Notes under the pieces: generated by a model
Seen by the model: only the letters and a program-made list of their open reading frames with translations
Databases searched by the model: none
Told to the model about the DNA's origin: nothing
Position numbers and translations under genes: made by a program
Shown here: positions 11,971-43,387 of the stretch, piece by piece
How positions within the stretch are numbered: position 1 is the first letter of the stretch
How the letters are laid out: every line of letters starts with the position of its first letter
Assembly: GCA_032622095.1 (NCBI GenBank)
Contig: CP136062.1
Span: 226,808,578 to 226,872,577 of the forward strand
Reading direction: 5' to 3'
DNA length: 64,000 bases
Source of the DNA: Siphonodentalium dalli
Lineage: Eukaryota; Mollusca; Scaphopoda; Gadilida; Siphonodentaliidae

Positions 11971-12187
11971 ATGTTTCGATCCGGACTCTTGGTTTGTGTT
12001 ACGGTTGCCCTCGCACGGGCTTCCGTTGACGTTGTACCAAAGCACGGTAGGAACAATTATATAGGCGTGTATGGGACGTACACTTATTACAACCCATACA
12101 ATTTACCGTACACAGTCTATAATTTTTGTGCAAACAACATGGGCTCATGTTCGACGATAGCCTATCCGGATTTCTGCTCGGCGTTCA
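11971..12187 (+). CDS. Exon 1: signal peptide, Tyr-rich segment, first half of ShKT-like module
   Basis: ATG at 11971 opens a short hydrophobic leader (LLVCVTVALA) ending near Ala/Ser 17-18. A segment of alternating Tyr follows (YGTYTYYNPY), then three Cys with the C-x6-C-x8-C spacing of ShKT domains. The exon ends in phase 1 at a strong donor (A|GTAAGTAT). An in-frame upstream extension exists but has no ATG and lacks leader character. The same layout and exact length (72 codons) recur in the paralogous exon at 55047, which supports this start and this border. Confidence 0.88.
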
Positions 12188-18100: not shown

Positions 18101-21100
18101 TTGCAGAAACAACATGCGTATTCGGATACAGACCAACACCGACAGTGTCAATCTATTACTATCTATATCGCCAGTATTGCTCATTATGGTGTGGTAAGTG
18201 TAACAGCAGCTATAAAACCTCGTGTGGTTCCAGTTCAACGACGACTACAACAACGACAAGAACAACAATGACGACAACAACAACAAGAACAACAACGACA
18301 ACTACAACGACAAGAACACCCAGCACATCTACGTATAAAAGTTAGTATTAGAGATATTCCGATCAAGAGTGAGGAACCTACGTAGTCTCGTATATATATA
18401 CCTGGCTCAGACACTCAGCTTACTGTTCCGTCTAACTCCACGACGCAACGCTTCCGCCGTTAGAGTCCAGAAAGTACAACATCTTTTCGGATACGACGTC
18501 ATGAGCTAATGACGTAGTAGCTATACTGCTTTCCTGGGCGCTGGTCATCTGGGCGATTTCTGGTGACGCTATATATATATAATTACAACTACTTTCGTTT
18601 TCGTCGAAATGCGGGCATTTGATTGGTCGAGAGGCTACCGCGTGACATGCGTCTATCAGTGCATAGACTTTGCAGTAGACGAGTCACATCGCGTAGTGAC
18701 ACTTTAAGAAAATTGGGCGAGTCTATAACCGTCGCCCCACACGAAGTCTCCGAATGACGCGAAAGCGCGGAACGAGAATTCCATTAGAATTTCAGTGAAA
18801 AAACAACTCGAAAACTCAATGTTAGAAACATTTGAACAAGTAGTCTATGTCTATATTCCATGTCTCTGCTTCTTATCTACAGTATACTATACTTATGTCT
18901 GTTCATTTCAGCCGTATTCATGTTTTTGTAAAGCTCGATTGAACACTCAAAGTTCGTGCCGCGTTTTTTATTTGTCCAATTTTCGAAAAAGCGTCTATGA
19001 CTATGACAACGTGTATAGGAATCACGGAACTAAATGGTTTCCCATAGGCGACAGTGTTAACGTTTCGGCCAAATTCGCTGAATTGAAGCCTGCAGGCCAT
19101 ACCAGTGATGTTTACCCAGCTAGATTGACACCAGTTGATCACGAAAATGCAAGAAAAATCATAGGTCATGTGTTTACTTTTTAAAATAAATCCCCAAGTG
19201 TACGACAGGGCTATCTCACATCCAAATTTGATCTGGAAAAACCCAGATCTACAACAGCTAGTTAAATACATTTCCCGCTCACAAAAATCCGTTCCCCCAT
19301 TCATTCACCAGTTTAAATTATTTAGATATTATGTACAAATCAAATAAACGCGATGTCATCCTTTAATAACGTGTCGCATGTATCAGGTGAAGGTCATTCT
19401 TCAGTTACCTTCACCTTTAGGGTTCCACGGTGTACTCGCTCCCCGACTCTAGAACACATTTAGCTCCCTGATTCCTATAGTTACTGCTGTGAACACAACT
19501 TATCATAAATAAGGCTGATCAACATGGCAAAATTTATTGGAAATAAATAAAATGTGTTACCCGATTACAACCCTTTTAACATTTTTCAGCTTTATTACAA
19601 TGCTAACATTTGACATGACATTTGTCATGAGCACATTATATATGATCAGGGCATTTGTTTACAAATTACACCGGCCATGATGATGATCGGACTGGAGTCT
19701 GGACTGGTCTGGAGTTAATAATTTTACCGGAGATCGCGGATTCGACTCTGTGTGTGTTGGTAATTATTGGGTTGTTGTTGAGTCATTTTAAACGTAAATC
19801 GTAGCCAAACAAGTAATTCTTTTTATCATGGATTGTTCATTGCTGATAATTGAAGTTGAAGCGTAAATATTTATTTTCTGAAAGTTTGCTTGACGAAGTT
19901 GCTCGTTGACAATTTCGGCCAATTTATTTTCGGCCCATCAACCAAATTTTGAGATCGTCCAACGGAAAATCATGTTTTGGCAATTAATTTTCTGAGATGG
20001 ATTAATAGTAGATAGCTGAAAATAAAATGTTATAGTTGTAATTATAAGCCACCAACGTCGTTTTTCGGTTGATCTATGAGCGTATAGACCGATCAGTAGA
20101 CGAATAACATACTTAGTATAATCCGCTTCGTGGAATTATACAGTATGTTATTCGTCTACTGATCGGTCTATACGCTCATATATCAACCGAAAAACGACGT
20201 TGATGACATATATAACTAGAAGGTGACCCCACTTCGTCCGGGCTTTGACCTTGAATTGACCATTTTGAAGGTCAAGGTCAGGTGGGGTCACGATTTGACC
20301 CGTCCAAAACACTGCCCGGACAAAAGTACCCAACAAAAGTACCCGTCGAAATCCATCCGGTTTTACCCGATTTGACCTCGAATTGATCATTTGGAAGGTC
20401 ACGATTTGACCCGTCCAAAACACTCAGTGGACAAAAGTAACCCTACGTATCAAATTTCGTGGAAATCCCATCAAAATTCGCGATTTGACCTTGAATTGAC
20501 CCGATTTCAAGGTCAAGGTAACGTCGCACGGGCAAATGAATAGGCTTATGAGACTCTCCATACGAAAGTGTCCATAGACACTAATTTTCATCGAAATCCC
20601 GTGATATTCGGGCGTTTGACCTTGAAGTGACCAGATTTCAAGGTCAATGTCACGTCGCACGGGCAAATTAATATGCCTATACCACTCCCCGGCCGAAAGT
20701 ATCCCCACATACCAAGTTTCATCGAAATCCCGTGATATTCGGGCGTCTGACCTTGAAATAACCCGATGTCAAGGTCAAGGTCACGTCGCACGAACAAATT
20801 AATATGCCTATGCCAGTTCCCGGTCGAAAGTACCACCACATACCAAGTTTCATCGAAATCGGGTCGGCCATTTTCGAGTTCATCGCGATCACACAGACAG
20901 ACACACACACAGATCTTCCAAAATATATAATAGACTAGCCGATGAGCCCGACGTTGTCCGGGTTATTCAAAAACCAACCGACGTTGTCCGGGCTATTCAA
21001 AAACCAAATTTCAAGTCGATAGCTCCACCCGTTTCCGAGATCTGGTCTGCGCATGCCCGAAGCTGGCGTCGCACGGACTCGGCGACCCGATAAAATTCGT

Positions 21101-27100: not shown

Positions 27101-30100
27101 GGCCCCCACCCCCATGGAATACGAAATACCACTTAATACAGAGGGTGGAATACGGAATACCAGTTAACAGTCATATGGAATACATAAAAAATATATGAAA
27201 ACTTCATTTTTTGGAAGGTCGGCGTACGAATACCGGTATATTTGGAATACCGAATACCTCCTAACAGAGGGGCCGGAATACGGCGTACCTCATAACAGGG
27301 CATGGAATACGGCGTACGAAAGGGGGGGTGGGGGCCTCATACTGTTAGAACCCTACCCATGCAGATCGGTGGAACTATTTGTTTATTCAAAAGTGTCAGA
27401 TAAGAACAAATCTTACATGATGGCATGTAATCAGGTAATTAACTCAAAACAACCTGATTTCTAAGCTCGATTATTCAAGTGTGCGAGGGCCTTAAGGCTA
27501 CGTTCATACGCTGGCATGTTTGCACATTATGTTTTGCAGGCATTTCGTCATAGAAAAACACATGGTGTCAGAATATGAACGGAACCGTGCGCATAACATG
27601 CATCTTTACCAAAGCGAAAGACATGAGAAGTAACATTTATCTAATTCCACTTGTAACAGTGCTATTGGAATTTGCCTTCAAATACATGTATGATTTATTC
27701 TTGCGAGATAATTGCATGATATGCACTGGCAAATTCCGGTAGCATCGTTACTAGTGGAACTACATAGATTTTATACCACACGTAGTTAGCTGTGGCACAG
27801 ATGCACTTTATGTGCTTGTTTCCGTTCATATTATTGCACCATATCGTTTTCTACGACAAAATGCCTGCAAACCATACCGTGCAAACTTGCCAGCGTATGA
27901 ACGCACCCTAAGGGGCAGACGTGTATATAGTATATAGTTCTTATTTACCAACTCTGTCGAATATTTATGCTTTTTCTGCCATTGTAAAATTTCGTTTGTT
28001 TTTCGGCCATTTTGACAGCCAGTTATGACATCCATTTCTGGGTCTGGATTTCTGTAATTTGACTTACATCCAGCCTATGTATTCATGTTATGCTTGTAGT
28101 TAAGACAACATGCGGTGTCCAGCCAAACTCCCCCAAAGCGATTTTTATAATTTTTATATTTTTTTCTTACATTCTTTTAGCAATTTTATCATTTAAAAAA
28201 AAAACAAATTCTTACATTCTTGATCAATTTTTATAATTTTTCTTCCATTCTTTAACAATTTTTTTTTTTTTTTTTTATCATTTTTCTTACATTCTTTATC
28301 AATTTTTATAATTATTCTTCCATTCTTTAACAATTATTATTATTTTTTATCATTTTTTCTTGCATTCTTTAACAATTTTTTATTATTTAAAAAATGTTTT
28401 CTTACATTTTTTAACAATTATAAAAAATAATTTAAAATATGTTAGGCCAATGAATTCTCTTATATATGCGAGGCGACCTATAAGAGAATGCATTGGCACA
28501 GGGTTTTCGCAAAAATTCAGGAAGACGACGACGTACGACATACAAGTGATTTTATAACCTTATTTAGCACATAATTAGCCACTAAACCCAACCTGATATT
28601 TATTAGTAAGACACATGTGTATTATCGACACGCGCAGTGACATAAGACCTTAGTGCAATTATATCGATAAATGTTATTGTTATGTTAATTAGAATATAAT
28701 TATGATATTCAATTTGTGCTGGTTTATTTAGTGTTAACTGTGAGATAAACATGGGGGTAACTGTCGTTGAACAATTATGTCAACACATTTAAAGGTACTC
28801 AATCCGATAAAACTCCTCTCAATTACTATTTAAATGGCTTCGGGGGTCAAAAATATTTGATTCGAGTCGAGGAAGTCACCCATCAAAGCTCGGATTTGTT
28901 AGATATCGATTTTAGAAATCTGTTATTTTTCATTATCGGGAATACTTTCGGGGCCCAGAACACAGTCAAAATTGCGTTATTATTACCACTTGATTTAGAG
29001 TTATCCATCCTTGTCTGTTTGAATAGTGTTTTGGTGTACACATCTCGAGCAGATTACGAAATTGAATGCAATTATTAGTACTCATCTCGAGAAAATAACA
29101 AATTTCAAAAATCAATATCTAATAACTCTGAGCTTTGTTTGATGGGTTCCTCGACTCGAATCAAATATTTTTTACCCCCAAAACCAAAGAAATAGTAATA
29201 TAGGACCCTCTGGTCGGATTGTTGTTGTTGGAATCTGTTGAGATGGGGACCCTCTGATCGGATTGAGTACCTTTAAAATGAAACTATATATTTTTTTAAT
29301 GTGTCTTTACTTCCTCTTTGGTTGTGTGGAACTGTCAGCACCACAAAACCCAACACAAATAAAAAAAAAATGAAATAAGTACATAATGTGTTTCTAACGA
29401 TGCGTTCTCATTTCAGAATGCGAGTATTCCAGCTATGAAAGAATCAACCCTCGTATTGGCGGGATTGCGTTCCCTGATTCTCAGTGCCATGACCCATGGA
29501 TGGCCGTGTTCAAAGATAGGAACGATCTGACGATTCCGTTATGCGCTGGAATAATCGTTAATCCGACAAAGGTTATCACTTCAATAGAGTGTGCGGCTAA
29601 CATGTGAGTATGCATGTATATATGTTTAACCCCTCCTATACTAAATGGATTCTCCCACTCAGTTATAAAAGTGTACATTGGAATTATCTATTATTTATTT
29701 GGAGGTATGTTAAGGATATATGAGCCAAACACCGTGGAAATATAACTTCAGAAAAACTAACGGTATATTTTCTTAGCATCATCAGTTTGCCCGATGTGAA
29801 ATCGCAGGAATTGTATGAAAAACATGCGCCTTTGCCTTAAGCAGAATCTAGAATAGGACCGATAAAAGAAATACATGAAGACTGGAGATATATAGATTGA
29901 AGCACTTCTAACTTAGAAGTTATCATTTTTTATCATTTTTCTTACATTATTTAACAATTTTATAAATATTTATGATTTTATTTCCATTCTGTAACAATTT
30001 TTATCATTTTTTAAAATCATTATTTCTTACCATTCTTTAACAATTTTTTTCATTTTTTAAAATGTTTTCTTACATTTTTTAACAATTATAAAAAATAATA

Positions 30101-33100: not shown

Positions 33101-36100
33101 GGCTAGCCAGGGCACATAATTAAGACGACCAATTGTCACCAAACTCCACCATTATAAATTGTCACACCAACTATGCCATCACTACTGTGGTACGTGTGTC
33201 CGCAGCCAATATTGGCTGTTTGCATTAATATCAATATCACATGAAACCCCTATTATATCAATAAAAGAGCCATTACATATTTCTTTTTATCATATGACTC
33301 AATCATTATGTACGTTGGAAAGTATGTCATAAATCAATTTCATATGAACTACTAGTTCATATCACCTTCCGATAATTTGATTGGTTTGTTGACAAAAAGT
33401 GTGTTTTGATTGGCTGAATGGCAGCCTGAGCCGAGCCGCATCTCTAAACTAAATGCAGGTCAAATTCGTGCGCGTCAATCAACGCGATGGCGAAATTCTC
33501 GCAATTATAATCTTGAAATATATAGTTTTGGACATTGTTATACGATAAATAGAATATGTAATTCGTATTTATCTAATAAACATACGATATAATGTCACAA
33601 ACAGAACAGAATAGCGCACTATATCTTCGCGTGCATATTATTTCTGCTAGTTCAGCAGGTGTAATTGGGCTTCCGGTGCAATGAAGTGACATCACATTAA
33701 CTTTTTGCTGCCGATGTCATATAGCTATTTAGTGATTTGCGTGCGTTTTGGACATCATAATCAATTTATAGGTGTCATCTGATAAATAGAATATGTAATT
33801 CGTGTTTCTCTCATATGATATTTATGAAACTCGTCACGAATTTTCAGTTTTCTCTCGCCGGAGGCTCGATCTCGCCGGAGGCTCGAGAAAACTGAAAATT
33901 CTTAGACTAGTTTCATAAATATCATATGAGAGAAACACTCATTTCATATCCTCTATATATCTCACTAGTGACGAATAGCCGCATGCTTCCCGGGATACTT
34001 GTCATCGCGCCAACTAAATTATCGCGCGGTTTAATACTATTTCGAAAGGCGCGCTTGACACCAATACCAGACATTGCAAAATTATTGCTATTTTCAAAAA
34101 ATTCAATGATTGTCCAACTTCGTTGCACAAACGAAAATAGGCACAAAAACAAAGAAGCAAATTTGGGGACTATGTTTTTCGTCGCAAGCCAGGGCGCGCA
34201 ATAATGTCGTATAAAGTTGTGAAGCGTCTCAGCCAACACCCTGGATGGATGCATTTTACATGCATTTTCAGCTTCTGTTAAAGATTTTTATTTGTTAAAA
34301 AGGCTTAAAGCTCAAGTTTTTTTCATGTGATATACAAAATCTTCAACTCATTATGTTGGGATATAAGCTTTTATGAAACTCGTTTGATAAATTTGATTCA
34401 CAACTCGTCTACGACTCGTTGTGAATCAAATTTATCAAATCGTTTCATAAAATCTTATATCCCAACATAACTTGTTTGAGATCCTCTATATCCATTGACT
34501 TTTACATGCTATAAATGTTCACATGTCACATATGATGTATTTTTATTTTTGTTTTAGTTTGAAGAATCAACGTAGTATTTCAAATCGTGATAGAATAAGT
34601 CAGCTTTTGAACTCTTCTAAGTTCTAAGGATTCGGTTGGAACAATGAAATCTGGTAAATTGTTCCAGTGCTTGATCGCCCGCTGCTTGAACAAATATTTT
34701 CCCACATTCGGGGCATTTGCAGTTTGTGATCACAACCTCTTTATGCATTACATTTATATCAAAATCAACATTTTCGTTCACAGTCCGTTTGGAACAGACT
34801 TGGTAGTAACAGTGGGGGATTACTCTAGACTGGCTCCAAACGAACCAGGTGAACGAGACGTGGAACCATCCATGACGAAGGAAGATGGAGGTTTGTTTCG
34901 ACCATATCAGTGTAACACTAGCACACAGTGACACCCCTGTCGCCCGCACATTTTCTACCCGTTCCATGTAGAACATAATTATTCGTATTCCCAATGCATC
35001 GAATGCATATGGCGGTCCGACTGTCTTATATTCCTATAGATGATGAAATTAATTTCTACTCTGGCTACGCCCATAGAGATCACTCTCCACCATGCAATTC
35101 AAAACCTGGGCATTTTTTATATTCTGATGGGGACCTTTATAATATAGAATAAATAACATAGATGATAATTTATCTTATAACCAATAACTGTTCCATAATC
35201 AAGTATTGTACATTAGGCGAAGGTTTCATCTCGGGACTGAATGATTTAGGCGAGATGTGGGAGCCAATTTCATGATAAACATGCATGAAATGATTACCAC
35301 AGGAACAATTGTATGATCGTAAGCGACGCAAAGCGAAGTCGGCTGACAAAAAGTACTTAAATCATGCAATTTTCAGCTGGAAGCTTCACCTATGTGAATA
35401 ACATTATTAAGAAATATGTATTAAAGGTATATTAAATCCGATTCGATGGTCCCCATGTCATAAGATTCCAACAACAACAACAACAACAACAATAACAACA
35501 ACAACAATTTTTGTTTGTTTGAAATGCCGCTTCAGTTATCAGAATTAACCAGTCCGGAGAAACAAATCTGTTTGTGATATAAATGGTGTCAATATATTGT
35601 TGTGTAATGAATCTGTATATATGTGGTCAGGTCGTGATCAACAAATGGCGCGAATGGTTTCACTTGACTTTTAATATAAACGCAGTAATATAACACACGA
35701 ACACACGAAATGATTTCAGATTAACCCAATTGACGGTGTATTATCACCCCTATATATATTGGGTGCATTTTACTAAACACTATATTCATATGAATTCGAG
35801 AATAAATCATCAACTAAACTGCCCAACACACCGATTACTATTGTGTCGGGCTATGCGTGTCTCGCTGCCCAACACACCGATTACTATTGTGTCGGGCTAT
35901 GCGTGTCTCGCTGCCCAACACACCGATTACTATTGTGTCGGGCTATGTGTGTCTCGCTGCCCAACACACCGATTACTATTGTGTCAGGCTATGCGTGTCT
36001 CGCTGCCCAACACACCGATTAATATTGTGTCGGGCTATGTGTGTCTCGCTGCCCAACACACCGATTACTATTGTGTCGGGCTATGCGTGTCTCGCTGCCC

Positions 36101-39100
36101 AACACACCGATTACTATTGTGTCGGGCTATGTGTGTCTCGCTGCCCAACACACCGATTACTATTGTGCCAGGCTATGCGTGTCTCGCTGCCCAACACACC
36201 GATTACTATTGTGTCGGGCTATGCTTGTCTCGCTGCCCAACACACCGATTACTATTGTGTCGGGCTATGTGTGTCTCGCTGCCCAACACACCGATTACTA
36301 TTGTGTCGGGCTATGCGTGTCTCGCTGCCCAACACACCGATTACTATTGTGTCGGGCTATGTGTGTCTCGCTGCCCAACACACCGATTAATATTGTGTCG
36401 GGCTATGTGTGTCTCGCTGCCCAACACTCCGATCGCTGCCCAACACACCGATTACTATTGTGTCGGGCTATGTGTGTCTCGCTGCCCAACACACCGATTA
36501 CTATTGTGTCGGGCTATGTGTGTCTCGCTGCCCAACACACCGATTACTATTGTGTCGGCCTATGCGTGTCTCGCTGCCCAACACACCGATTACGATTGTG
36601 TCGGGCTATGCGTGTCTCGTCCAATATAACTTTTCACCACAACCTGGACTCGTACAAGAAAACACATAATGTACACATCTAATAACTTAATAGTATATAC
36701 CATTTGAAAGAGGAAGCTAAAAACATTGTATTATCAACTTATCCGGTCGAATAAACTGTGAACTCTGTCATGGTACCGACGTATGTTCTGTGCTTATTTT
36801 CGATCTGGTCTGTACTGCCAGTATATTGGAAGGTGAATAACTCTCTCTCTATCAGTCGTGAATTATGTGAAGTCTTGTGGTGAATCTGAGAATCTCTATC
36901 ACTTGGTGGACACTCCAAGGCCGCAGCTGTTCTGTATTATGGTGGAATATATATATTTTTGGTTCTTCTTCCAAATGGTATATAATATGGAATATGTTCT
37001 GTATAATGTGATCTGGGCATTCCAAAATTTAATTATATATACCGATTGAACTTGTGCTTGATTATAGATGGGTTTCGCAAAATAGAAATATTTTAGCATT
37101 GTTGAATATATAACATTCAGAATCAATAAATATCCGTTAAACGGATATGATTTTTTTTCAAATCTGAGGTTAGGTTGCTAATAAGGATTTTTCATCTGCA
37201 GATACAGGCATTGCGACCTTCACCTTGCGCCATCCTTTGGATTTCAACAGATGCGTGTCACCAGCCTGTTTCGAATACCAGGACAGGACAATTCATGTGG
37301 ATACCAAGAGCTGTGTGATCGTCGGGTGGGGAGAGACCAATCAATTTGCATGTACGTACATTCTTCTGAAAGCTCTGAATGGATTATTCCATAGAAGCAT
37401 ACAATTTACTCTAATGATGGATACATACCTCGGTGTAATTCTTGTATATATCGCGTATGTGCCGTTTTTCACGAGACTTACTAGCCATGTAATACTTTTA
37501 TCAATCACATTTGTCATCCACTATATAGATAAAGGCTGCAATATAAACCATACCTTTATCGTGCTAAAATAAAGCAAGAACGGCTACTTCAAATATCATA
37601 ATAAAGGCACGTGCTGAGAACTACAACCGCAAATCTTGCAAACCCTTGTTTCATCTTCAATATTTCTTCTGTTTTAGTTCCCGGATTGCCACCCATGCCA
37701 TCTTTTCTTATGAACACCGGCAATGTAGAGCTATCATATGACTGTAGTAATATACTGGCGATAGAGACTTCGAAACCGGACCCCATCGTGTTTTACATGG
37801 ACGAAAAAAACGTGGGATGTACTTCAGTCGGGCAATCAGAGTCGGCGGCATGCGAGGTGAGTTAGATGTATTTCAGTCAGGCAATCGGCGGCATGTGAGT
37901 TGAGTAATACGTCGGATGTACTTCAGTGAAGTTCAGTCATGCAATCAGATTCGGCGGTATGTGAGGTGAGTAATACGTCGGATGTACTTCAGTCATATCA
38001 TTTGCGCGCGCAAAATGTGCAATATAGGAGAAAATACACACATACCTCACGGAGCGGAGCGTAGTCCCAACTTTCGTAAAACTGTTTAATAGTAAAGTGC
38101 AAGGGACCCAGTCAGCACGTATTATAATACACTCACACGACGTGGACAAATTACTAGCTGGTGATTTCTTACCTTACGGGGTCCGGTGCAGACCATGGAC
38201 GCGCGACCCACCAGGCACGACGAATAACGGCTTCAATGATGAGTGACCTTAAAATACTGACTTGGAACGCTAGTGGTGCAATTAACAACTCTACTTACCT
38301 TTCGAAGTTAATCAACACGAAGAAGTTCGACGTAATCGGTATATCAGAGCACTGGTTGGACATAGACAATATATACCGCTTTGATTCCCTATGTGCTAAT
38401 GACTATGTGCATGTATCTAAACCTGGCAGACTGATTGAAACTAAATCAGGAGGCTCCTTCACACGTGACGGAGTGGCACTACTTATACGCAGGAACCTTA
38501 TAAAAAACTGTACATACATCCAAATTGAGGAACAACGCTTCATTGCTGTCCGAATCCGTATGACATCCAGCATACAACTGACCATAATACAGGTGTACCT
38601 ACCAAGCACTAATCATGACGATTCCTATTTTAAAGATTGCCTCCAATCGCTCGAAAACTACACACGAATGTACGCAGAGGACAGTTTCGTACTAATCATC
38701 GGCGATTTTAATGCACACATCGGTGACTCCAGACAGAACAATCCTCCTTCGGGCCACGCGGTCAGATCTAAACTTTTTACTAAGCTTTTGGACAACATAC
38801 ATGCATTTTCTACAACAACTTCGAATATGTGTTGTGGTGACAAGTTTTCCTTTTTCCCATTTCCTGGAGCCGGATCACCAACGCTAATAGATCATATCGT
38901 GATACCCACATCCATGTCAGACTTCGTTGTACGATGTGAGATATTTGATGACAAACCATCTAACACATCATGTCACGTTCCTGTGGCATGTCATCTTGGA
39001 TTTCCAGAGATCCCTGTTCCTCCCACGACACACCACACTCAGACACGCTTTAATTGGAAGCGTTTGGATATCAACAAATTCCAACTGTTCTTGGACTCTA

Positions 39101-42100
39101 GATGTACATTTCTGAGCTCCTGTGTCATTTCCAGTAAATTAGACCTTTCCAATATGTACCAGGATATAGTTGTAGCTTTGCTAAATGCTTCCGAATTTGC
39201 GACCACACGGAGGCGCCACGCTCATCATCTTAACCCGTACTGGAATGAAGAGCTTGAACTGCTTCACAAATATTCTAACTCACGCCGACATCTATGGATC
39301 CAGGATGGCAGGCCGCATTTAGTTGAGTCAGAGTCCTATGTCAACTATAAAAATGCCAAACGTGACTTCCGTCGTGCATTCCGAGCAGCAGCACGTCAGC
39401 ATGAGCAGAAAATTTACGACGATCTGGAACACCATGCCAGCAACGACCATTCTTCGTTTTGGAAGCTGCTGAATTCCGATAAACCGAAACGGACAATCGC
39501 ATCAGAGATGGAATTCAAAGGTGTGATGACTCGCGACTCAACAGACATACTTACGGGCTGGAGGGACTACTTCGAACAGTTGTACAGTGAACCTACACAC
39601 GAAGACCCAGCTTTCGAACAATATGTCGTATCTACTGTCAACTCATTTCCCGACTCGGACAATGCAGATCTTTCATCTGCAGATTTGTGCGCACAAATAT
39701 CACCCAAGGACATCCGTGCTGTCGTGTGTGCGTTAAAAGTTAACAAGTCTGGAGGTGAAGATAATATCTCAAACGAACATCTCATCAACAGTCCAGACTC
39801 GGTCATACGTTTGTTGTGTGCTCTTTACAACGGCATACTTAAATTTGAACACGTACCACGTGAAATGAAAGCGGGACTTATTGTCCCTTTGTATAAGGGT
39901 TCACCAAAACAACCACACCTGCCTGACAGCTATCGTGCGATAACGCTCTTACCAATTCTCTACAAAGTTTTTGAAGCAGTCATTATGAACCGCGTGTGGA
40001 AAAGTCCTCTATGTGTAAATTTCCCAAGTGAGCAACAGAGCGGCTTCCAGAAGAATATCAGCTGCACGATGTCATCTTTCGTATTACAGGAATCAGTGGC
40101 ATATGCTTCTGACAAGGGTTCTCGCGCGTTTGTTTGTTTCCTGGACTCGGCGAAGGCTTTCGATCGCGTCTGGCACTCAGGCCTAATGTTGAAATTATAT
40201 CAATTTGGAATTCGAGGTAAACCTCTTAGAATAATCAGCAACATGCATAAGGATTGCTGCAGCAAAATTCTGTACAATTGCGGTGTGTCGGATCCATTTC
40301 CTATCTCACAAGGAACGCGCCAAGGAGCTGTCAGTTCACCGTTCTTTTACTTGGTGTATGTGAATGACTTACTCCTAAAACTAACTGCGGCACAACAGGG
40401 GATGGCAATTCACAATATCGTATGCTCTGCCCCAACTACAGCAGACGATATCGCAATTGTGTCGCTCTCCAAAGCTGGTCTCGATGAAATGTTATCTATC
40501 TGTCACGATTACAGTGTGACTTGGAGGTTCAACTTTTCGAGTACGAAAAGCAAGGTTGTTGTTTTTAATGAAACTGCCCGACAAAATGAACAGAACAGAA
40601 CATGGCTGCTCGGAGGCCATACTCTCAGTGAAGTAACAGAATGTTCTCATCTCGGAATTACCCAAGGGAAATTCAACAATTCAGCCAATCGTTCAGAACA
40701 GATATCTCATAAAATGAGAAATACATACTTCGCTCTAGCAGGGAAGCCAATGACTAGATATTGTTCTCCATCCGTAATGGCCAAGTTACTGAAATGTATC
40801 GTTCTCCCCAAGGCTCTATATGGGAGCGAGTTGCTCCCCTTAGACAGCAGATCTACTCTTCTAACAATTGAAAGGTCATTTCGTGTATGTGTGAAACATA
40901 TGCAATCTCTTCCAACCAGGACACCAACAACTGTGGCGCTTAGTCTCCTGGGATTGCTTCCAGTCGAGATAGAAATTCATCTGCGGAAACTATACTTCCT
41001 TGAAAAACTCGTGCACATGCCGGTGGGCCACCAGACTCCGTTGAGGGTATTTCTTTTCAAGGCACATCAATACCGGCTATTTGGTCGCTCCATGTCAGGA
41101 TTTGTTAAAGACATTTTCACCTTATTAGAGGAATATCATCTTTTAACATTCCTCACTGACTTCATGGACACAGGATTATTTCCATCGAAAAGCGAATGGA
41201 AGAGACTGGTTCGCGAGAAAGTCGAAACAAACTATTACTCTTCGTGGTATCGTTCGACTGAGCTCAATGCCGATCTCTCATTATTCCTGTGCTGCCATTC
41301 CCATCCCAATCAAACATGGAACATTTGGAATCTGTGCAAGTCTCACCGATCATTCTCGAAGCCACTGAGACATTTAGCAAGGCTACTGAACAAATCAACT
41401 TACGTAAATAATTTGACGTGTAGATTGTGCGACACGGATTATAACCACGAGTTATACCATGTGTTTTGGTCCTGCAGGTCGCCCATTGTGATACATTTAG
41501 TTGATCAGCACTGGGAAATGATACTAAATAAACACGGAATCGATGTGTATCTTTTCCTAGCATCACTCGCACCAACAGATCTGATGACAGTTTTCCTCGG
41601 AGGTCACATGCCGTCGCTCTCCGAACATATCTACGATATATTGGACTTGGTCATCATAGACACAAGTATCTTCTTGCTATATATATGTAATATGATCACA
41701 AACACCAATTCGGACAATGTTTTCCAGCGTTTTTCATAAATACACGAACATGTACTCTTGTGTGTGTCAGAATGCTATCAAAATGATTCTGATAATGCAT
41801 GGACTATCTCAGAAACGGTGTTACCAATCTTGTTAAACTGTATATTTAAATATGTATTATAACCCATGTAAATATCTACTCTCCCACGAGGAGGCAATAA
41901 AAGATATATACATTAGGAAATGGCTTTAATAGTATTCCATATTCGCATGTCAAAACCATTGTTATGTAAACAGTGAAATTACCAATACAAATTCCAAGTC
42001 CAATTATTCCTATCTCACACCCCTGCCAGATGACTTGTTATTATATTCCTTTGTCCCCACATCCGCCTCGGCGTTCAAAATCGACATCCTGGTATTAAAT

Positions 42101-43387
42101 CTCCATGTACCCGATGTTGCCGAAGTTAACTAATAATATCTTACACACTTGCCAAATGACTAGTTATTTGGGATTGTAAGACCAAACTTTTGGTGTGCTT
42201 TCCTTAGCCACTTGGGTAATTTAAATAGTACTACTCGGAAGGGGGTTACAAATTGAATATCTCTAATAATAGCGCTTCTTCAGTGCAATTGTTTGCGACT
42301 CAGTGCAATTATTAATTAATGTGAAATTGGCCTTCCATGGATTCTGACTGTTTTTTTTATGAGAAATTTAGATTTATTATGAAGAATAAACACAAAGCAA
42401 CCATTAATGTGACATGATCCGGTCTTTCTTAGCCGCTGGGGATTCCAATAAAAGCTAGTCAATTATTAATTTAGGACAGATGAATTCAATGTAACGAAAA
42501 AAAGAGGAAAACATTCGTCAGGAAACTACATTTTTACATGTGTATGCAGGGGGGGGGGGGGGGTCGGAATTTTTTTTCAGGCACGTATGGCATTTTTTCC
42601 CTTTCGATCATTTTTTGTACCCACCCACCCCCACCGCCAAATTTTTTTCCGTTTTCGGCAGTTTTTTCCGACCATTTTTTGACACCCTTTTAACACTAAA
42701 ACAGAGATTTGCGGGGGGAAATTCACTGTAAACAGCTGTATATGAATTTCTGTGCATACTATTTATCATGGATGTTAACATGGACATGTAAATAGGAATG
42801 AGTCATTTTGAGGTCATTCGGTCAAAAAAACATGGCTGCCAGCGGCCATCTTGGATTTCAAAATTTGCAACAAAATACAACACGATAACTGCCTGCAGTC
42901 AGTTTACCAGTTAGAATTACATTATTTCTCTCATTCAAAGTGGTTTTGAAGCCCAACTCATTGCCAAAACACTAAAAAACAAGCAGGAATTTTTTTTTTT
43001 AGTTGCGGAAAAAATTGCTTGTTGGTGGCTTTGACCACCCACCCACCCCGGCATACGTGCCGGAATTTTTTTTTTCACCCCCCCCCTGGTGTATGCATAT
43101 ATGTTACTCATCTAATATATATAGTTAATTGTTGTCAAATTATATCTATTTTATTCATGTTTGCAACTGCCCATTTAGGTATATTTTGCATTAAATCTGA
43201 TCTTATCATGCACATTATTACATTGCAGGGTGATATTGGAGGGCCTGTCATATGCGAAGAAATGACAACAAGGGAGAGAATTGTCGTTGGTGTGATCAAG
43301 GCAGGGACCTGTAAAGATAATCTTCGCATGACGTACTTTGTTAAGTTGAACTCTGCCGAGTCCACAGCCATATTGAAAACTCTTTAG
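11971..43387 (+). CDS. Secreted ShKT-like / Thr-rich / chymotrypsin-fold pseudo-protease (7 exons, whole gene span)
   Basis: Rebuilt from seven exons with GT-AG borders whose phases (1,1,2,1,1,0) agree at every junction. The coding sum is 1194 nt, giving 397 aa. Order: signal peptide (residues 1-18), Tyr-rich segment (30-50), six-Cys ShKT-like module (C53, C60, C69, C84, C88, C91), Thr-rich linker (about 104-135), then a chymotrypsin-fold domain (about 150-397). The fold is shown by a PRIGG start, the C-x15-C pair around the His site, CVIVGWG and CEGDIGGPVIC. The catalytic His is Glu (E195), the Asp position aligns with G238 and the Ser is Ile (I348). The specificity residue before CEGDIGG is Ala (A342). 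It should therefore be a secreted non-catalytic serine protease homologue. The role is unknown; binding, decoy or cofactor functions are known for such homologues. Its introns hold most of the window's mobile DNA. Confidence 0.85.
12188..12545 (+). other. Start of intron 1, nothing recognised
   Basis: Intronic sequence after the first donor. It shows no coding signal or repeat I can name. The intron as a whole runs to about 18145. Confidence 0.5.
12546..12711. mobile_element. Near-perfect 160-bp hairpin (MITE-like) in intron 1
   Basis: Arms of about 78 bp begin AAGGATTAACTGTCATGTGG and end in its inverse, with a loop at AACCCTTCGGGTT. The arms differ at only a few positions. The whole element is one hairpin without coding capacity. 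Confidence 0.85.
12712..13397. other. Intron 1 sequence, nothing recognised
   Basis: AT-rich. It carries one copy of a motif GTGGTCA..CTGGCATAGCGAG near 12993 that recurs near 17830 and 18039, presumably an old dispersed repeat. No other supported feature. Confidence 0.35.
13398..13475. repeat. 39-bp direct duplication
   Basis: Two identical adjacent 39-bp units starting TAGATTCAACACATATATAA (13398-13436 and 13437-13475). The lack of divergence points to a recent slip duplication. Confidence 0.9.
13633..14755. mobile_element. hAT-like non-autonomous element with 8-bp TSD
   Basis: Termini CAGGGATGTGGCCAGAGGG (left) and CCCTCTAGCCACATCCCTG (right) are inverted repeats. They are flanked by the identical 8-bp sequence ACTATTAG at 13625-13632 and 14756-14763. 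An 8-bp duplication with CAGGG ends is characteristic of hAT transposons. The interior repeats a GGGCCGACCATGGT palindromic block (13950, 14209) and GGAAATTTCCAAC-like words. Poly-G and poly-C runs lie next to both ends. No transposase frame. Confidence 0.88.
14764..16475. other. Intron 1 sequence with a few relics
   Basis: No exon recognised. A hairpin at 15115-15197 is annotated separately. At about 15700-15850 lies a diverged copy of one arm of the TTAA-flanked element at 28793-29272 (shared GGCTTCGGGGGT, AAATATTTGATTC, ATATCAATTTTTGAA). The rest is AT-rich without supported features. Confidence 0.4.
15115..15197. repeat. 83-bp hairpin with GTACGGGTA core
   Basis: Arms AGTTTGCGATTTCAAA and TTTGAAATCGCAAACT enclose palindromic GGTACGGGTAC / GTACCGGTAC runs. 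A related half (ACCCGTACCCGTTCCCGTAG, ATCGCAAACTCGCTAA) lies at about 17265-17312. Confidence 0.8.
16476..16912. mobile_element. Degenerate hAT-like relic with poly-C/poly-G ends
   Basis: The right end TAGCCATGTCCCTG resembles the terminus of the hAT-like element at 13633-14755, and the left end starts CAGGAACGTG. Inside, CAACAATTGGAAA-type words recur, and poly-C (16508) and poly-G (16735) runs sit near the ends. No intact duplication is seen. Confidence 0.45.
17457..17840. mobile_element. Partial copy of the PIF/Harbinger-like element
   Basis: Starts GGCTGCTGACACACGTACCA and continues through GGAGTTTGGTGACAATTG to ATAATTGCACGATCGATCGT. It matches the arm of the element at 32516-33207. The opposite terminus was not found, so this is a one-ended relic in intron 1. 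Confidence 0.75.
18146..18340 (+). CDS. Exon 2: second half of ShKT-like module and Thr-rich linker
   Basis: Encodes the closing Cys trio with the spacing C-x3-C-x2-C (CSLWCGKC) that ends ShKT domains. A linker follows, made of ACA/ACG/ACT threonine codons broken by single Arg or Met, likely O-glycosylated. The donor is A|GTTAGTATT, phase 1. The 5' border is ambiguous: acceptors ending at 18145 (CGACAG) and 18106 (TTGCAG) are both in frame and would give 397 or 410 aa. The shorter form is nearer to the usual ShKT spacing. Confidence 0.78.
18235..18322 (+). repeat. Coding ACA/ACG triplet repeat
   Basis: A run of about 29 mostly ACN codons (interrupted AACAACGACAACAACAAG pattern) inside exon 2. 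It is in frame, so length changes would alter only the linker length. Confidence 0.85.
18575..20206. mobile_element. Hairpin-ended element A in intron 2
   Basis: Starts with ATAATTACAACTACTTTCG and GCATTTGATTGGTC. It ends in a 150-bp hairpin (20052-20204) with arms CCAACGTCGTTTTTCGGTTG and inverse. A second member at 22283-23195 shares start, interior words (ACCGGAGA.CGC) and terminal hairpin. The 129-aa open frame at 18795-19184 has no recognisable domain and I do not call it a gene. Confidence 0.55.
20052..20204. repeat. 150-bp terminal hairpin of element A
   Basis: Arms of about 68 bp around GTATAATCCGCTTCGTGGAATTATAC pair almost perfectly. Confidence 0.85.
20207..20935. repeat. Tandem GACCTTGAA/AAGGTCA repeat block
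   Basis: Diverged tandem units of about 120 bp carry TTTCATCGAAATCCCGTGAT, a TGACCTTGAA...AAGGTCAAGGTCACGTCGCAC core and AATATGCCTATG. They end in a (CAGA)/(CACA)n stretch and GATCTTCCAAAATATATAATA. This is a diverged version of the adjacent 122-bp arrays. Open frames across it read the repeat only. Confidence 0.75.
20936..22282. repeat. Array of 122-bp units with (CAGA)n tails, locus 1
   Basis: Three head-to-tail elements start at about 20936, 21505 and 21893. Each has a head (AGCCGATGAGCCCGACGTTG), one to two 122-bp units (GTCGATAGCTCCACCCGTTT, GCGCATGCGCGAAGC, TCCGGGGCAAGATACATT) and a closing segment (CAAACTACACACACGTACCA). Each ends with (CAGA)n and GGTCTTCAAAATATATATGA. Since 122 is not a multiple of 3, long open frames hop between frames and are not genes. 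Confidence 0.85.
22283..23195. mobile_element. Hairpin-ended element B
   Basis: Second member of the family at 18575. It starts ATAACTACCTTCGCTTTCG directly after the 122-bp array and ends in a hairpin at 23045-23194 (GCAATCAACGTCGTTTTCGA and inverse). No coding capacity. Confidence 0.6.
23045..23194. repeat. 150-bp terminal hairpin of element B
   Basis: Arms of about 68 bp, related to the hairpin at 20052-20204 at both edges (AACGTCGTTTT) but diverged in the middle. Confidence 0.85.
23438..23757 (-). mobile_element. tRNA-derived SINE with (ATTG/AATC)n tail
   Basis: Read on the minus strand it starts GGGGCATCGGTGGCTCAATC, a box A-like match (TGGCTCAATCGG). It then has GGGTTCAAATCC, a box B-like match, each at tRNA-like spacing. 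It ends CGACAATAAACCACAATCAA followed by AATC repeats. RNA polymerase III boxes plus a simple-repeat tail define a tRNA SINE. The short tail suggests mobilisation by a LINE that recognises a specific 3' end. It sits in intron 2. Confidence 0.8.
23857..23935. repeat. 79-bp hairpin
   Basis: Arms TCTGAAACGCATGCAGTGGA and TCCACTGCACGAGTTTCAGA with inner CAGATATTA/AATATCTG pairing. Confidence 0.75.
23945..24226. repeat. About 56-bp minisatellite, left part
   Basis: Five to six units of the pattern ATTAGTGACGTAGGTTCCTG, AACGTCTGAAGTGACGG, TTTATATAATAC. The array is interrupted after 24226; about two further units follow at 24870-24945. Confidence 0.85.
24227..24868. mobile_element. Hairpin-led insertion inside the 56-bp minisatellite
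   Basis: The insertion separates the two halves of the minisatellite. It begins with a 148-bp hairpin (24233-24380) with arms ATGTAGCTAGTGTCGTCGCT and inverse. It ends near the GTTTATTAGGCAGGCTTTA and GGTGGATAAACTAC words, which echo the inner TTTATCCATCGC. No coding capacity. Confidence 0.6.
24870..24945. repeat. About 56-bp minisatellite, right part
   Basis: Two more units (AGTGACGTATGTTCCTGACC, GAACGTCTGAAGTGACGG) of the array that starts at 23945. Confidence 0.8.
24950..27100. other. Intron 2 sequence, nothing recognised
   Basis: AT-rich with several short open frames and no splice-supported coding signal. AAAGAGCGTT occurs near 25375 and 25421, as in several other places in the window. 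Confidence 0.35.
27105..27330. repeat. Diverged GGAATAC repeat
   Basis: Irregular repetition of TGGAATAC(G)GAATACC / GGCGTAC(C/G) words over about 220 bp. Confidence 0.55.
27488..27916. mobile_element. MITE with GCGTTCATACGC termini
   Basis: The left end CCTTAAGGCTACGTTCATAC and the right end inverse (GTATGAACGCACCCTAAGG) form about 28-bp inverted repeats. Subterminal AAAATGCCTGCAAA/TTTGCAGGCATTT-type pairing extends the arms. No open frame of interest. Confidence 0.7.
28143..28520. mobile_element. AT-rich element ending in the 69-bp palindrome (shortened)
   Basis: Tandem TTTTTCTTACATTCTTTAAC blocks are followed by a 52-bp version of the palindrome (28446-28497) that has lost one half of its centre, then CAGGGTTTTCGC. 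The same order is seen at 29919-30210. Confidence 0.6.
28793..29272. mobile_element. TTAA-flanked element with long inverted arms
   Basis: Flanked by TTAA at 28789-28792 and 29273-29276. Termini AGGTACTCAATCCGAT and ATCGGATTGAGTACCT are perfect inverses. Arms of about 140 bp continue with GGCTTCGGGGGTC and AAATATTTGATTCGAGTCGA pairing. This suits a piggyBac-type non-autonomous element. Related relics lie at 15700-15850 and 35421-35512. Confidence 0.8.
29417..29603 (+). CDS. Exon 3: start of protease-like domain, His-site region
   Basis: The acceptor TTTCAG at 29411-29416 matches the phase-1 donor of exon 2 and makes a Lys codon. The exon reads through PRIGG, the equivalent of the activation site (usually R-IVGG, here one residue shorter). 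It then has CHDPWMAVF and LCAGIIVNPTKVITSIEC. The last matches the CGGSLI...AAHC block of chymotrypsin-type proteases, but His is replaced by Glu (E195). The flanking disulphide pair C180/C196 is kept. Donor AT|GTGAGT, phase 2. Confidence 0.9.
29919..30210. mobile_element. AT-rich element with 69-bp palindrome
   Basis: TTTTTCTTACATTATTTAAC-type blocks, then the palindrome at 30114-30182, then CAGGGTTTTTCTCAAAATTT. Same composition as 28143-28520. Confidence 0.65.
30114..30182. repeat. 69-bp palindrome module, copy 4
   Basis: Full-length copy with one arm mismatch (AATACATTGG). See 292-360. Confidence 0.9.
30553..30690 (-). mobile_element. Truncated SINE-like 3' part with (AATAA)n tail
   Basis: On the minus strand a box B-like GGGTTCCAACCCC is followed by a short conserved-looking body (ACATTCCGATCGATGCGTGG). 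It ends in repeated AATAAATAATAAATAATAA. Box A is not convincing, so it may be 5'-truncated. Confidence 0.45.
30929..31314. mobile_element. piggyBac-like MITE, copy 2
   Basis: Near-identical to 149-527: TTAA at 30929-30932 and 31311-31314, CCCTTTACCCAACA terminus, two 69-bp palindromes (31082-31150, 31216-31284). The right terminus carries a single change (AAAGTG for AAAGGG). Located in intron 3. Confidence 0.82.
31381..31799. other. Intron 3 relic with GGAAATTT words
   Basis: Resembles the interior of the hAT-like elements at 13633 and 16476 (CAGGGACGTGTGTCAGGGGT start, GGAAAATTTTCCGACCAAAA). No ends or duplication could be defined. Confidence 0.35.
31808..32014. mobile_element. 207-bp palindromic MITE, hAT-like
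   Basis: The whole element is one inverted repeat from CACAGGGGCC to GGCCCCTGTG, with arms through GGCGGCGTATATGGGCAGCG. Flanking 8-mers GCTTTCTT (31800-31807) and GTTTTCTT (32015-32022) differ at one base, compatible with a slightly mutated 8-bp duplication. Poly-C and poly-G runs sit inside both ends. Confidence 0.72.
32015..32512. other. Intron 3 sequence, nothing recognised
   Basis: No repeat or coding signal that I can support. Confidence 0.3.
32516..33207. mobile_element. PIF/Harbinger-like non-autonomous element
   Basis: Inverted termini GGCTGCGGACACACGTACCA and its inverse extend into long arms. The element is flanked by a 3-bp AAT at 32513-32515 and 33208-33210. Another copy at the right window edge is preceded by TTA. 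Three-base A/T-rich duplications are typical of PIF/Harbinger transposons. The centre holds a 43-codon coding remnant on the minus strand (32648-32776). Partial copies lie at 17457 and 63907. Confidence 0.75.
32648..32776 (-). pseudogene. Remnant resembling a MADF/Myb-like domain
   Basis: The minus strand reads an uninterrupted stretch with an AVSELLEEMQLIESIWNK opening, then REL YNEQ and KKKADYNELWK. The pattern of an acidic helix, IWN.....LYN and a final W resembles the start of MADF or Myb/SANT-type DNA-binding modules carried by PIF/Harbinger elements. It is preceded in coding sense by TGTAG, which could be an old acceptor. It is probably left from the parent transposon. Confidence 0.45.
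33211..33800. other. Intron 3 sequence, nothing recognised
   Basis: AT-rich. The ATAAATAGAATATGTAATTCGT block occurs twice (about 33545 and 33782). No coding signal. Confidence 0.3.
33803..33938. repeat. 136-bp hairpin
   Basis: Arms GTGTTTCTCTCATATGATAT and inverse continue through AGTTTTCTC/GAGAAAACT to a loop that repeats TCGCCGGAGGC twice. Confidence 0.85.
34351..34470. repeat. 120-bp hairpin
   Basis: Arms TTATGTTGGGATATAAGCTT and inverse, with inner GATAAATTTGATTCACAA pairing and an ACTCGTCTACGACTCG centre. Confidence 0.85.
34580..34719 (-). pseudogene. LINE 3'-end relic
   Basis: The minus strand reads KYLFKQRAIKHWNNLPDFIV then SLELRRVQKL before a stop. This is the familiar tail of Jockey/CR1-type ORF2 proteins (..R..WN.LP..IV...S...F). 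Only about 46 codons remain. It lies just upstream of exon 4. Confidence 0.65.
34784..34890 (+). CDS. Exon 4: strand between His and Asp sites
   Basis: The acceptor TTCACAG (ends 34783) joins the phase-2 donor of exon 3. The exon reads TDLVVTVGDYSRLAPNEPGE, the counterpart of the VRLGEHDL...EG.EQ block of chymotrypsin-fold proteins. It ends DG|GTTTGT in phase 1. An AG nearer to the coding match (at 34797) would shift the frame, so 34783 is preferred. Confidence 0.85.
34891..35818. other. Intron 4, left part
   Basis: Contains a one-ended relic of the TTAA-flanked family at 35421-35512 (TTAAAGGTATATTAAATCCG), which runs into (CAA)n. Nothing else supported. Confidence 0.45.
35819..36620. repeat. 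46-bp minisatellite, about 17 copies
   Basis: Head-to-tail units of CTGCCCAACACACCGATTAC, TATTGTGTCGGGCTATGCG, TGTCTCG. Copies differ mainly at GCGTGT/GTGTGT and TTACTATT/TTAATATT. One unit near 36411-36433 is truncated. All three plus frames are open across the array (frames up to 299 codons) because the unit has no stop codon; this is not evidence of a gene. Confidence 0.95.
36700..37200. other. Intron 4, right part
   Basis: AT-rich. ATATCCGTTAAACGGATAT near 37128 is a small palindrome. No other feature. Confidence 0.4.
37202..37351 (+). CDS. Exon 5: Asp-site region and GWG motif
   Basis: The acceptor ATCTGCAG (ends 37201) completes an Asp codon with the last base of exon 4. The sequence TGIATFTLRHPLDFNRCVSP parallels NDIALLKL..P; in that alignment the catalytic Asp position is Gly (G238), with a Asp two residues earlier. 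CVIVGWGETNQF is the conserved Cys136-GWG strand. Donor T|GTACGT, phase 1. Confidence 0.9.
37352..37677 (+). other. Intron 5 (326 bp)
   Basis: The shortest intron of the gene, GTACGT to TTTTAG. The open frame reading through its start has no protease match and is intronic read-through. No repeat is seen. Confidence 0.7.
37678..37856 (+). CDS. Exon 6: C-terminal half before the Ser site
   Basis: The acceptor CTGTTTTAG (ends 37677) restores a Phe codon. The exon reads FPGLPPMPSFLMNTGNVELS, NILAIE and a C-rich end, SESAACE. This equals the segment from Cys168 to Cys191, with Ala where the specificity Asp/Ser would stand. Donor GAG|GTGAGT, phase 0. The 3' end of this exon with its donor is tandemly repeated downstream (37814-37995). 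Confidence 0.88.
37814..37995. repeat. Triplication of the exon 6 / donor junction
   Basis: GGGATGTACTTCAGTCGGGC, a CAATCAGAGTCGGCGGCATG block and GAGGTGAGT recur twice more as diverged copies (about 37866-37905 and 37915-37990). The second and third copies include GTGAGTTGAGT and GAGGTGAGT, so they carry potential alternative donors. Confidence 0.85.
37996..41908 (+). mobile_element. Full-length-looking non-LTR retrotransposon (LINE) in intron 6
   Basis: One intact ORF is preceded by about 240 bp of non-coding sequence and followed by about 170 bp ending GAGGAGGCAATAAAAGATAT. The same 3' signature ends the relic at 7760. It is inserted on the gene's own strand. No separate ORF1 is visible. 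Exact borders and target-site duplication were not found. Confidence 0.8.
38236..41739 (+). CDS. LINE ORF2-type protein: AP endonuclease - reverse transcriptase
   Basis: An uninterrupted 1167-aa frame from the first in-frame ATG (38236). The N-terminal about 240 residues are an AP-type endonuclease: ILTWNASG, GISEHWL with the catalytic Glu, LIIGDFNAHIGD and SPTLIDHIVIP. The last motif, usually SDHxP, reads SCHVPV, so Asp is Cys while His is kept. The reverse transcriptase follows: GLIVPLYKGS, LDSAKAFDRVWH (motif A), GTRQGAVSSPF (motif B) and TTADDIAIVS (motif C, catalytic Asp pair kept). The C-terminal third ends with a Cys/His cluster, CRLCDTDYNHELYHVFWSC. It would nick target DNA and copy its own RNA. 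The clade is not decided; the tail resembles I/Jockey-group proteins. Intactness suggests a recent insertion. Confidence 0.92.
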   Translation: MMSDLKILTWNASGAINNSTYLSKLINTKKFDVIGISEHWLDIDNIYRFDSLCANDYVHVSKPGRLIETKSGGSFTRDGVALLIRRNLIKNCTYIQIEEQRFIAVRIRMTSSIQLTIIQVYLPSTNHDDSYFKDCLQSLENYTRMYAEDSFVLIIGDFNAHIGDSRQNNPPSGHAVRSKLFTKLLDNIHAFSTTTSNMCCGDKFSFFPFPGAGSPTLIDHIVIPTSMSDFVVRCEIFDDKPSNTSCHVPVACHLGFPEIPVPPTTHHTQTRFNWKRLDINKFQLFLDSRCTFLSSCVISSKLDLSNMYQDIVVALLNASEFATTRRRHAHHLNPYWNEELELLHKYSNSRRHLWIQDGRPHLVESESYVNYKNAKRDFRRAFRAAARQHEQKIYDDLEHHASNDHSSFWKLLNSDKPKRTIASEMEFKGVMTRDSTDILTGWRDYFEQLYSEPTHEDPAFEQYVVSTVNSFPDSDNADLSSADLCAQISPKDIRAVVCALKVNKSGGEDNISNEHLINSPDSVIRLLCALYNGILKFEHVPREMKAGLIVPLYKGSPKQPHLPDSYRAITLLPILYKVFEAVIMNRVWKSPLCVNFPSEQQSGFQKNISCTMSSFVLQESVAYASDKGSRAFVCFLDSAKAFDRVWHSGLMLKLYQFGIRGKPLRIISNMHKDCCSKILYNCGVSDPFPISQGTRQGAVSSPFFYLVYVNDLLLKLTAAQQGMAIHNIVCSAPTTADDIAIVSLSKAGLDEMLSICHDYSVTWRFNFSSTKSKVVVFNETARQNEQNRTWLLGGHTLSEVTECSHLGITQGKFNNSANRSEQISHKMRNTYFALAGKPMTRYCSPSVMAKLLKCIVLPKALYGSELLPLDSRSTLLTIERSFRVCVKHMQSLPTRTPTTVALSLLGLLPVEIEIHLRKLYFLEKLVHMPVGHQTPLRVFLFKAHQYRLFGRSMSGFVKDIFTLLEEYHLLTFLTDFMDTGLFPSKSEWKRLVREKVETNYYSSWYRSTELNADLSLFLCCHSHPNQTWNIWNLCKSHRSFSKPLRHLARLLNKSTYVNNLTCRLCDTDYNHELYHVFWSCRSPIVIHLVDQHWEMILNKHGIDVYLFLASLAPTDLMTVFLGGHMPSLSEHIYDILDLVIIDTSIFLLYICNMITNTNSDNVFQRFS
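41909..42539. other. Intron 6 after the LINE, nothing recognised
   Basis: AT-rich sequence with no supported feature. Confidence 0.35.
42548..43088. mobile_element. hAT-like element with poly-G ends
   Basis: The left end is a long G run then TCGGAATTTTTTTTCAGGCA and CGTATG. The right end is its inverse, CATACGTGCCGGAATTTTTT then a C run. The 8-mer GTGTATGC flanks both sides (42540-42547 and 43089-43096). The interior is unrelated to any gene. Related single ends are at about 56960-57040 and 62127-62170. It lies about 130 bp before exon 7. Confidence 0.8.
43229..43387 (+). CDS. Exon 7: degenerate Ser-site motif and C-terminus
   Basis: The acceptor ACATTGCAG (ends 43228) matches the phase-0 donor of exon 6. 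The exon opens GDIGGPVIC, the counterpart of GDSGGPLVC with the nucleophile Ser replaced by Ile (I348). It continues IVVGVIKAGTC (normally GIVSWG..C) and ends AILKTL before TAG. The surrounding glycines and Cys are all kept, so the fold is probably intact while catalysis is lost. Confidence 0.92.
   Translation, partial: GDIGGPVICEEMTTRERIVVGVIKAGTCKDNLRMTYFVKLNSAESTAILKTL

Follow-up and report, generated by a model that had tools for sequence, protein, structure and literature searches.

Secreted proteases that have lost their activity occur commonly. HGF and HGF-like protein (MSP) are dead S1A ligands that carry an activation site and a tether of the Cys1-Cys122 type.

The clip-domain SPHs of insects (SPHI and SPHII, e.g., Drosophila cSPH35 and cSPH242) are secreted proteins in which a dead S1A domain, its catalytic Ser replaced by Gly, lies behind a Cys-rich N-terminal module, and they are activated by cleavage (PMC10540698). 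Drosophila cSPH35 and cSPH242 associate on cleavage, and the cleaved complexes act as a strong cofactor for prophenoloxidase activation, whereas the uncleaved precursors have a small effect; the cleavages mapped there lie elsewhere than Arg15-Ile16, one of them in a clip-domain loop (PMC10540698).

Here we analysed a window of the genome of the scaphopod mollusc Siphonodentalium dalli (the whole stretch of DNA under study, 64,000 nucleotides; assembly GCA_032622095.1, contig CP136062.1, positions 226,808,578 to 226,872,577, forward strand). It contains a gene, gene A, that most likely encodes a catalytically dead member of the S1A (trypsin-like) fold and is predicted to be secreted; it belongs to a cluster of six paralogues, A-F. 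Kringle and PAN domains are absent from gene A in a Pfam scan of its 410 amino acids (aa), and its N-terminal head, linker and triad replacements differ from those of HGF and MSP; as judged from predicted domains, the relation to these ligands is likeness, not membership. When a profile of the family was compared with solved structures, plasminogen, an active protease, was the best match (1.1e-15), followed by HGF-like protein (3.1e-14) and HGF (1.3e-12), and similar scores were obtained for granzyme K and factor X. The likeness to HGF is therefore nonspecific. Compared with the insect clip-domain SPHs, neither the gene A protein nor any of the six heads has a CLIP match in Pfam, and the heads carry eight invariant cysteines. 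By predicted domain content, the gene A family is neither HGF nor clip-domain SPH. S1A proteins that are dead and bear additional N-terminal modules are already known; the head, the full loss of the triad shared across genes that keep the switch residues, and the six-gene cluster together set this family apart from what is described in the open-access papers listed in our searches.

Results

Gene A consists of seven exons on the plus strand (11971-43387) that join into one continuous open reading frame of 1,233 bases, encoding 410 aa, from an ATG at 11971 to a TAG that ends at 43387. All six junctions are GT-AG, with phases 1, 1, 2, 1, 1 and 0. Seven exons with matching phases over 31 kb had been proposed in an earlier note on this DNA, and the start, stop, splice sites and single frame bear this out; its coordinates were correct, while its protein length of 397 aa falls 13 short of the present model. 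The exons are as follows.

Gene A exon 1, 11971-12187, plus strand: signal-peptide-like hydrophobic start, Tyr-rich stretch and the opening three Cys of an eight-Cys module; phase 1 at its end; counterparts in genes B-F
Gene A exon 2, 18107-18340, plus strand: remaining five Cys of the eight-Cys module and Thr-rich linker; homologous exon in genes B-F
Gene A exon 3, 29417-29603, plus strand: CEYS (Cys1), Arg15-Ile16, and a strand with Cys42 and Cys58; Glu at the His57 position
Gene A exon 4, 34784-34890, plus strand: VTVGDY strand and the loop preceding the Asp102 position; 3' end set by paralogues, later donor possible
Gene A exon 5, 37202-37351, plus strand: Gly at the Asp102 position; Cys117, Cys122, Cys136 and GWG
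Gene A exon 6, 37678-37856, plus strand: Cys168, Cys182, Ala189 and Cys191
Gene A exon 7, 43229-43387, plus strand: GDIGGP (Ile at Ser195, with Gly193 and Asp194 retained), Cys201, Cys220, C terminus and stop

For the end of exon 4, we chose the donor GTTTGT over an alternative, GTAACA after an exon-final T, because it is the sole donor with a counterpart at the equivalent place in all six genes. The alternative is in phase, would add 8 aa (418 aa in total) and would match trypsin spacing, and later in-phase GT sites follow exon 4 in genes B and D as well; a later in-phase donor is thus possible. A chance origin of the gene is excluded by its match to the Pfam Trypsin model (E, 3.6e-20) together with five paralogues of equal exon plan, and on this sequence evidence the seven-exon gene A is real.

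The introns of gene A are repeat-rich. Intron 6 contains a LINE-type element (window 38158-41739, plus strand) with a 1,193-codon open reading frame that includes reverse transcriptase (6.3e-25) and endonuclease (4.8e-8) domains, intron 4 contains a 46-base tandem array (window 35681-36774), and an 11-base array lies 5' of the gene (window 9659-10070).

The earlier note had suggested that the joined protein be searched against chymotrypsin-fold and ShKT profiles. Residues 175-400 of gene A match Pfam Trypsin (PF00089) at 73.2 bits, well above the cut-off of 20.6, and plasminogen is the best match of the protein among solved structures (E, 1.1e-9). In the alignment to plasminogen, numbered by the chymotrypsin convention, His57 is replaced by Glu, Asp102 by Gly and Ser195 by Ile, and position 189, found by counting back from Cys191, is Ala; all four residues had been read in this way before. 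The previously noted retention of GWG, the disulphides and the Gly frame around the nucleophile also stands, since GWG, GDxGGP and the core cysteines are present. All eight columns of the putative core disulphide pairs (42-58, 136-201, 168-182 and 191-220) are invariant in A-F.

Extra exons that restore the triad had been named in the earlier note as grounds against a dead protease. A six-frame scan of the whole window found no GDSGG and no Asp102-type motif, and two matches to the His57-type motif (near 14813 and 9315) stand without other trypsin features around them. By these motif scans, a triad-restoring exon with standard motifs is therefore absent from the window. A genome-wide search with the Trypsin model gave no match in the cluster among the 150 of 232 candidates scored, which is weak evidence, as the divergent genes A-F escaped it too.

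With the gene A protein as query, a search of the same genome (2.23 Gb, nine contigs) placed the six paralogues within 289 kb (C2:226.82-227.11 Mb), A, B and C on the plus strand and D, E and F on the minus strand. They share an identical seven-exon plan and identical phases without a single internal stop, and encode proteins of 410 (A), 400 (B), 406 (C), 467 (D), 377 (E) and 387 (F) aa; identity to gene A in the protease domain is 43-52% for B-F. GT/AG sites of the required phase are present at homologous places in every gene, although the count of 72/72 GT-AG sites is partly by construction, since splice sites were picked among GT/AG sites of the needed phase. Exon 4 of gene E was detected by profile only (best stretch E, 8e-8). 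One exon of gene B, absent from the earlier note, falls within the window.

Gene B exon 1, window 55047-55263 (C2:226863624-226863840), plus strand: first exon of gene B, the rest of which lies beyond the window

About 580 kb off, C2:226401400-226401800 holds a copy, near-identical in translation, of the end of gene D exon 4 and the following intron bases, a stray duplicated exon.

Two more distant relatives, X and Y, are found at C2:198.78-198.85 Mb, 28 Mb from the cluster. In both, the family profiles match exons 3 and 7 strongly (5e-17 to 7e-8) and exons 4-6 weakly (0.00023 to 0.093); the family-profile search found no exons upstream of exon 3. The His/Asp/Ser positions read E/G/I in A, E/G/A in B and D, E/G/V in C and F, A/G/T in E, and S/G/Q in both X and Y. 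The triad is thus retained at 0 of 24 positions across the eight genes, with Asp102 replaced by Gly in every one.

Near X and Y lies gene Z (C2:198719500-198736052, minus strand), whose trypsin-like exons keep His57 and Asp102 and have Asp in place of Ser195; it is possible that Z represents a half-way state of triad loss. Ser replaces His57 in three further trypsin exons, at C4:272.83 Mb (TTASC), C2:170.46 Mb (TTASC) and C2:76.68 Mb (TSASC), and the genome may contain more dead or odd proteases than the cluster by itself would suggest.

We compared the eight dead genes with five active S1A trypsins of the same genome (C2:202.8, C2:183.2, C5:106.7, C1:188.9 and C3:183.3 Mb). Both groups share the fold and Gly193-Asp194, with Cys42, Cys58, Cys122, Cys201 and Cys220 in most or all, and two of the five active trypsins (C2:202.8 and C2:183.2) also share with the dead genes the Cys before Pro28-Trp29 and the Cys117 and Cys122 pair. 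The active trypsins keep His57, Ser195 and Ser214 (5/5) and Asp102 (4/4 read), whereas the dead genes keep none of these. For a wider count, we used the 40 alignment columns that are occupied in four or more of the five active trypsins and show agreement among at least 80% of the residues present. All eight dead genes retain 13 of these columns (Cys42, Cys58, Cys122, Gly193, Asp194, Gly196, Gly197, Cys201, Cys220 and four more). A further 15, including His57, Asp102, Ser195, Ser214 and Gly226, are retained by no dead gene, and the remaining 12 are mixed; two of the 15 lost columns, near the C-terminal end, are gaps in X and Y. Ser214 is replaced by K, M or D, and Gly226 by Thr in all eight.

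In the 14-row alignment, every one of the eight dead genes also has Cys1, Arg15, Ile16, the Cys before Pro28-Trp29, Cys117, Cys136, Cys168, Cys182 and Cys191. The S1A zymogen-switch residues Arg15-Ile16, Asp194 and Cys1/Cys122 are thus complete in all eight. The Gly18-Gly19 that follows the cleavage site is not universal (IDHG, ISG and ILDG variants occur), and 64 of 270 alignment columns are invariant in A-F. The kept core, cleavage site and Asp194, set against the lost His57, Asp102, Ser195, Ser214 and Gly226, indicate that the core and switch stay while the parts for cutting and for holding substrate go. Arg15-Ile16 could, however, have been retained by descent without being in use.

In a 14-row tree, the eight dead genes separated from Z and the five active rows with support of 100/99; A-F grouped at 99/99, and X with Y at 99/96. 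Exons 4 and 6 are missing from several rows, and the program issued a warning that long branches meet. When Z and two active rows were left out, the eight-gene split was again 100/99 and the separation of A-F from X and Y went down to 81/96, with the same warning. Because the trees separate the eight dead genes from the active trypsins, the triad was probably lost once, before the duplications.

For protease-domain codons, NG86 estimates of dN/dS were 0.15-0.39 in 13 of 15 A-F pairs, with dS high, and too high to correct in the other two; YN00 gave 0.22-0.41 in seven of 15 pairs and no value in the other eight. The corresponding ranges for the head (gene A residues 23-112, signal and linker excluded) were 0.18-0.30 in eight of 15 pairs by NG86 and 0.31-0.81 in the six of 15 pairs that gave a value by YN00. 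Whole-domain dN/dS exceeded 1 in no pair with a value, and differences in the protease domain at codon positions 1/2/3 were 0.385/0.290/0.570, an excess at third positions. These estimates point to purifying selection between paralogues A-F, with a stronger case in the protease domain than in the head. The earlier reading of a chymotrypsin fold with the whole triad replaced gains support from the same loss in five paralogues and from these signs of purifying selection.

The heads of A-F, encoded by exons 1 and 2, consist of a hydrophobic start, a Tyr stretch with an invariant G-x3-Y-Y-x3-N (6/6) and a cysteine module in which eight Cys are invariant in all six genes. Thr is abundant in the linker that follows in genes A-D, less abundant in that of F and almost absent from that of E, and linker length differs greatly between genes; in the Pfam scan of gene A the linker gave weak low-complexity matches to glue and mucin models, below their cut-offs. 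The domain order of gene A is therefore not a one-off, being common to the six-gene cluster (without the Thr run in gene E). None of the open-access papers listed in our searches describes this order, which does not prove its absence from print.

The Tyr-rich stretch and Thr-rich linker had both been noted before, and these stand. The same note had described a six-Cys ShKT-like module, which does not: the heads have eight invariant Cys, and none of the six matches Pfam ShK (PF01549) at E values up to 10, within HMMER's filters, the best E for any family being 0.17. A head profile found no related structure among solved structures (best E, 2.1), and searching the genome with the D and B heads returned only the six cluster genes below E 0.04. 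Across the genome, where 150 of 154 candidates were scored, the ShK model gave 30 matches, and none of them fell in the cluster. When the head profile was aligned by hhalign with 12 of the ShK domains from this genome, the probability was 1.4%, both profiles being shallow (6 and 12 rows). What the heads share with ShKT is a C-x3-C-x2-C end and a C-x6-C-x8-C start, set on eight invariant cysteines versus a six-Cys frame. The Asp two after Cys1 is present in 10 of the 12 ShK domains and one of the six heads, and the Trp three after Cys2 and the Met before the Cys that opens C-x3-C-x2-C (Cys4) are each found in 12/12 ShK domains and 0/6 heads. At the sensitivity used, the ShKT identity of the head is rejected by the Pfam scan, the solved-structure profile, the genome ShK search and hhalign alike, and a very remote tie is possible. 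The eight-cysteine head may be a new extracellular module, having no match in Pfam or among the solved-structure sequences searched.

Duplicated splice junctions were observed repeatedly in the cluster. Ten of the 36 donor junctions of A-F (A exon 6, around 37856 in the window; B exons 3, 5 and 6; C exon 3; D exon 3; E exons 2 and 6; F exons 3 and 4) are matched, at 22 or more of 30 bases, by a copy close by that spans the exon/intron boundary, mostly in short tandem arrays, versus one of 36 acceptor junctions (C exon 6; Fisher p, 0.0065). The 22/30 cut-off was set after the scores were seen; at 24/30, the counts were seven donors and one acceptor. Among random 30-mers from the window, 34 of 300 had a nearby copy, satellite arrays included. 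Splice-site "mirages" are described in amphioxus genes (PMC3087553); compared with these, the copies in A-F recur within one gene family.

Discussion

The explanation that we favour, with confidence a little better than even, is that A-F and their relatives form a family of secreted, dead S1A pseudoproteases that bind rather than cut, are switched by cleavage at Arg15-Ile16, and use the head to bind a second partner. A binding role, suggested in the earlier note from the kept fold and the lost triad, is a reasonable inference; switching by cleavage is a step further, and perhaps also applies. In such a mechanism, the protein would be secreted, a trypsin-like enzyme would cut after Arg15, and the two chains would be held together through Cys1-Cys122. 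The new Ile16 end would then insert towards Asp194 and reshape the dead cleft and its loops, which could engage one partner, and the second would be bound by the stalked head. The proposed logic is that of HGF and MSP. More loosely, it resembles that of the insect SPH cofactors activated by cleavage (PMC10540698). We put forward more tentatively, and consider it rather doubtful, that these are lineage-specific two-chain extracellular ligands or cofactors that arose independently of HGF and the insect SPHs, in which a new eight-Cys head, Tyr stretch and glycosylated stalk were combined with a stripped trypsin fold, the Ile16-Asp194 switch was kept, and proteolysis turns on binding.

Several other explanations could be considered. 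The Tyr stretch, with its invariant motif in all six heads, and the Thr-rich linkers of widely varying length in most genes, with their weak low-complexity matches to glue and mucin Pfam models, would suit a structural secretion, i.e., a component of mucus, glue or matrix in which the Tyr stretch and an O-glycosylated Thr stalk are the working parts and the dead domain serves as a stable, disulphide-rich building block without a switch. However, those matches lie below their cut-offs, gene E is almost without a Thr run, and the protease domain appears to be under purifying constraint, with the switch residues kept in 8/8 genes, so that we judge this explanation unlikely. It is also conceivable that the dead domain is a decoy in immunity or reproduction, where it would mimic a protease and sequester microbial factors or inhibitors of the serpin or Kunitz type, with duplication and divergence following changing partners. 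The sequence spread of the tandem cluster (43-52% protease-domain identity to A) and the variation at residue 195 (I, A, V, A, T and V in A-F) are consistent with this notion, but the substrate cleft has been rebuilt, with Ser214 and Gly226 kept in 0/8, and canonical inhibitors would therefore fit it poorly; moreover, no pair with a value reaches a whole-domain dN/dS above 1. We regard a decoy as improbable.

Gene A is a model built on genomic sequence, and its introns are repeat-rich and include a LINE, as might be seen in a decaying pseudogene or a false join of exons. Against this stand six copies with equal exons and phases and without an internal stop, the Pfam E value of 3.6e-20 and the third-codon-position excess (0.385/0.290/0.570), which leave such an origin very improbable. 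That the fold still cuts by means of an unusual catalytic group, such as the Glu at position 57 found in five of the six cluster genes, is barely credible, given that position 57 is Ala in gene E and Ser in X and Y, Asp102 is Gly in 8/8, position 195 is I, A, V, T or Q, and Ser214 is kept in 0/8.

For a dead, secreted family that would bind rather than cut, stages of loss are found together within one genome: active trypsins, Z with only Ser195 replaced (by Asp), and eight genes that lack the triad and keep the switch residues. With this staged loss in a single genome, one can test whether selection for binding alone is able to maintain a zymogen switch.
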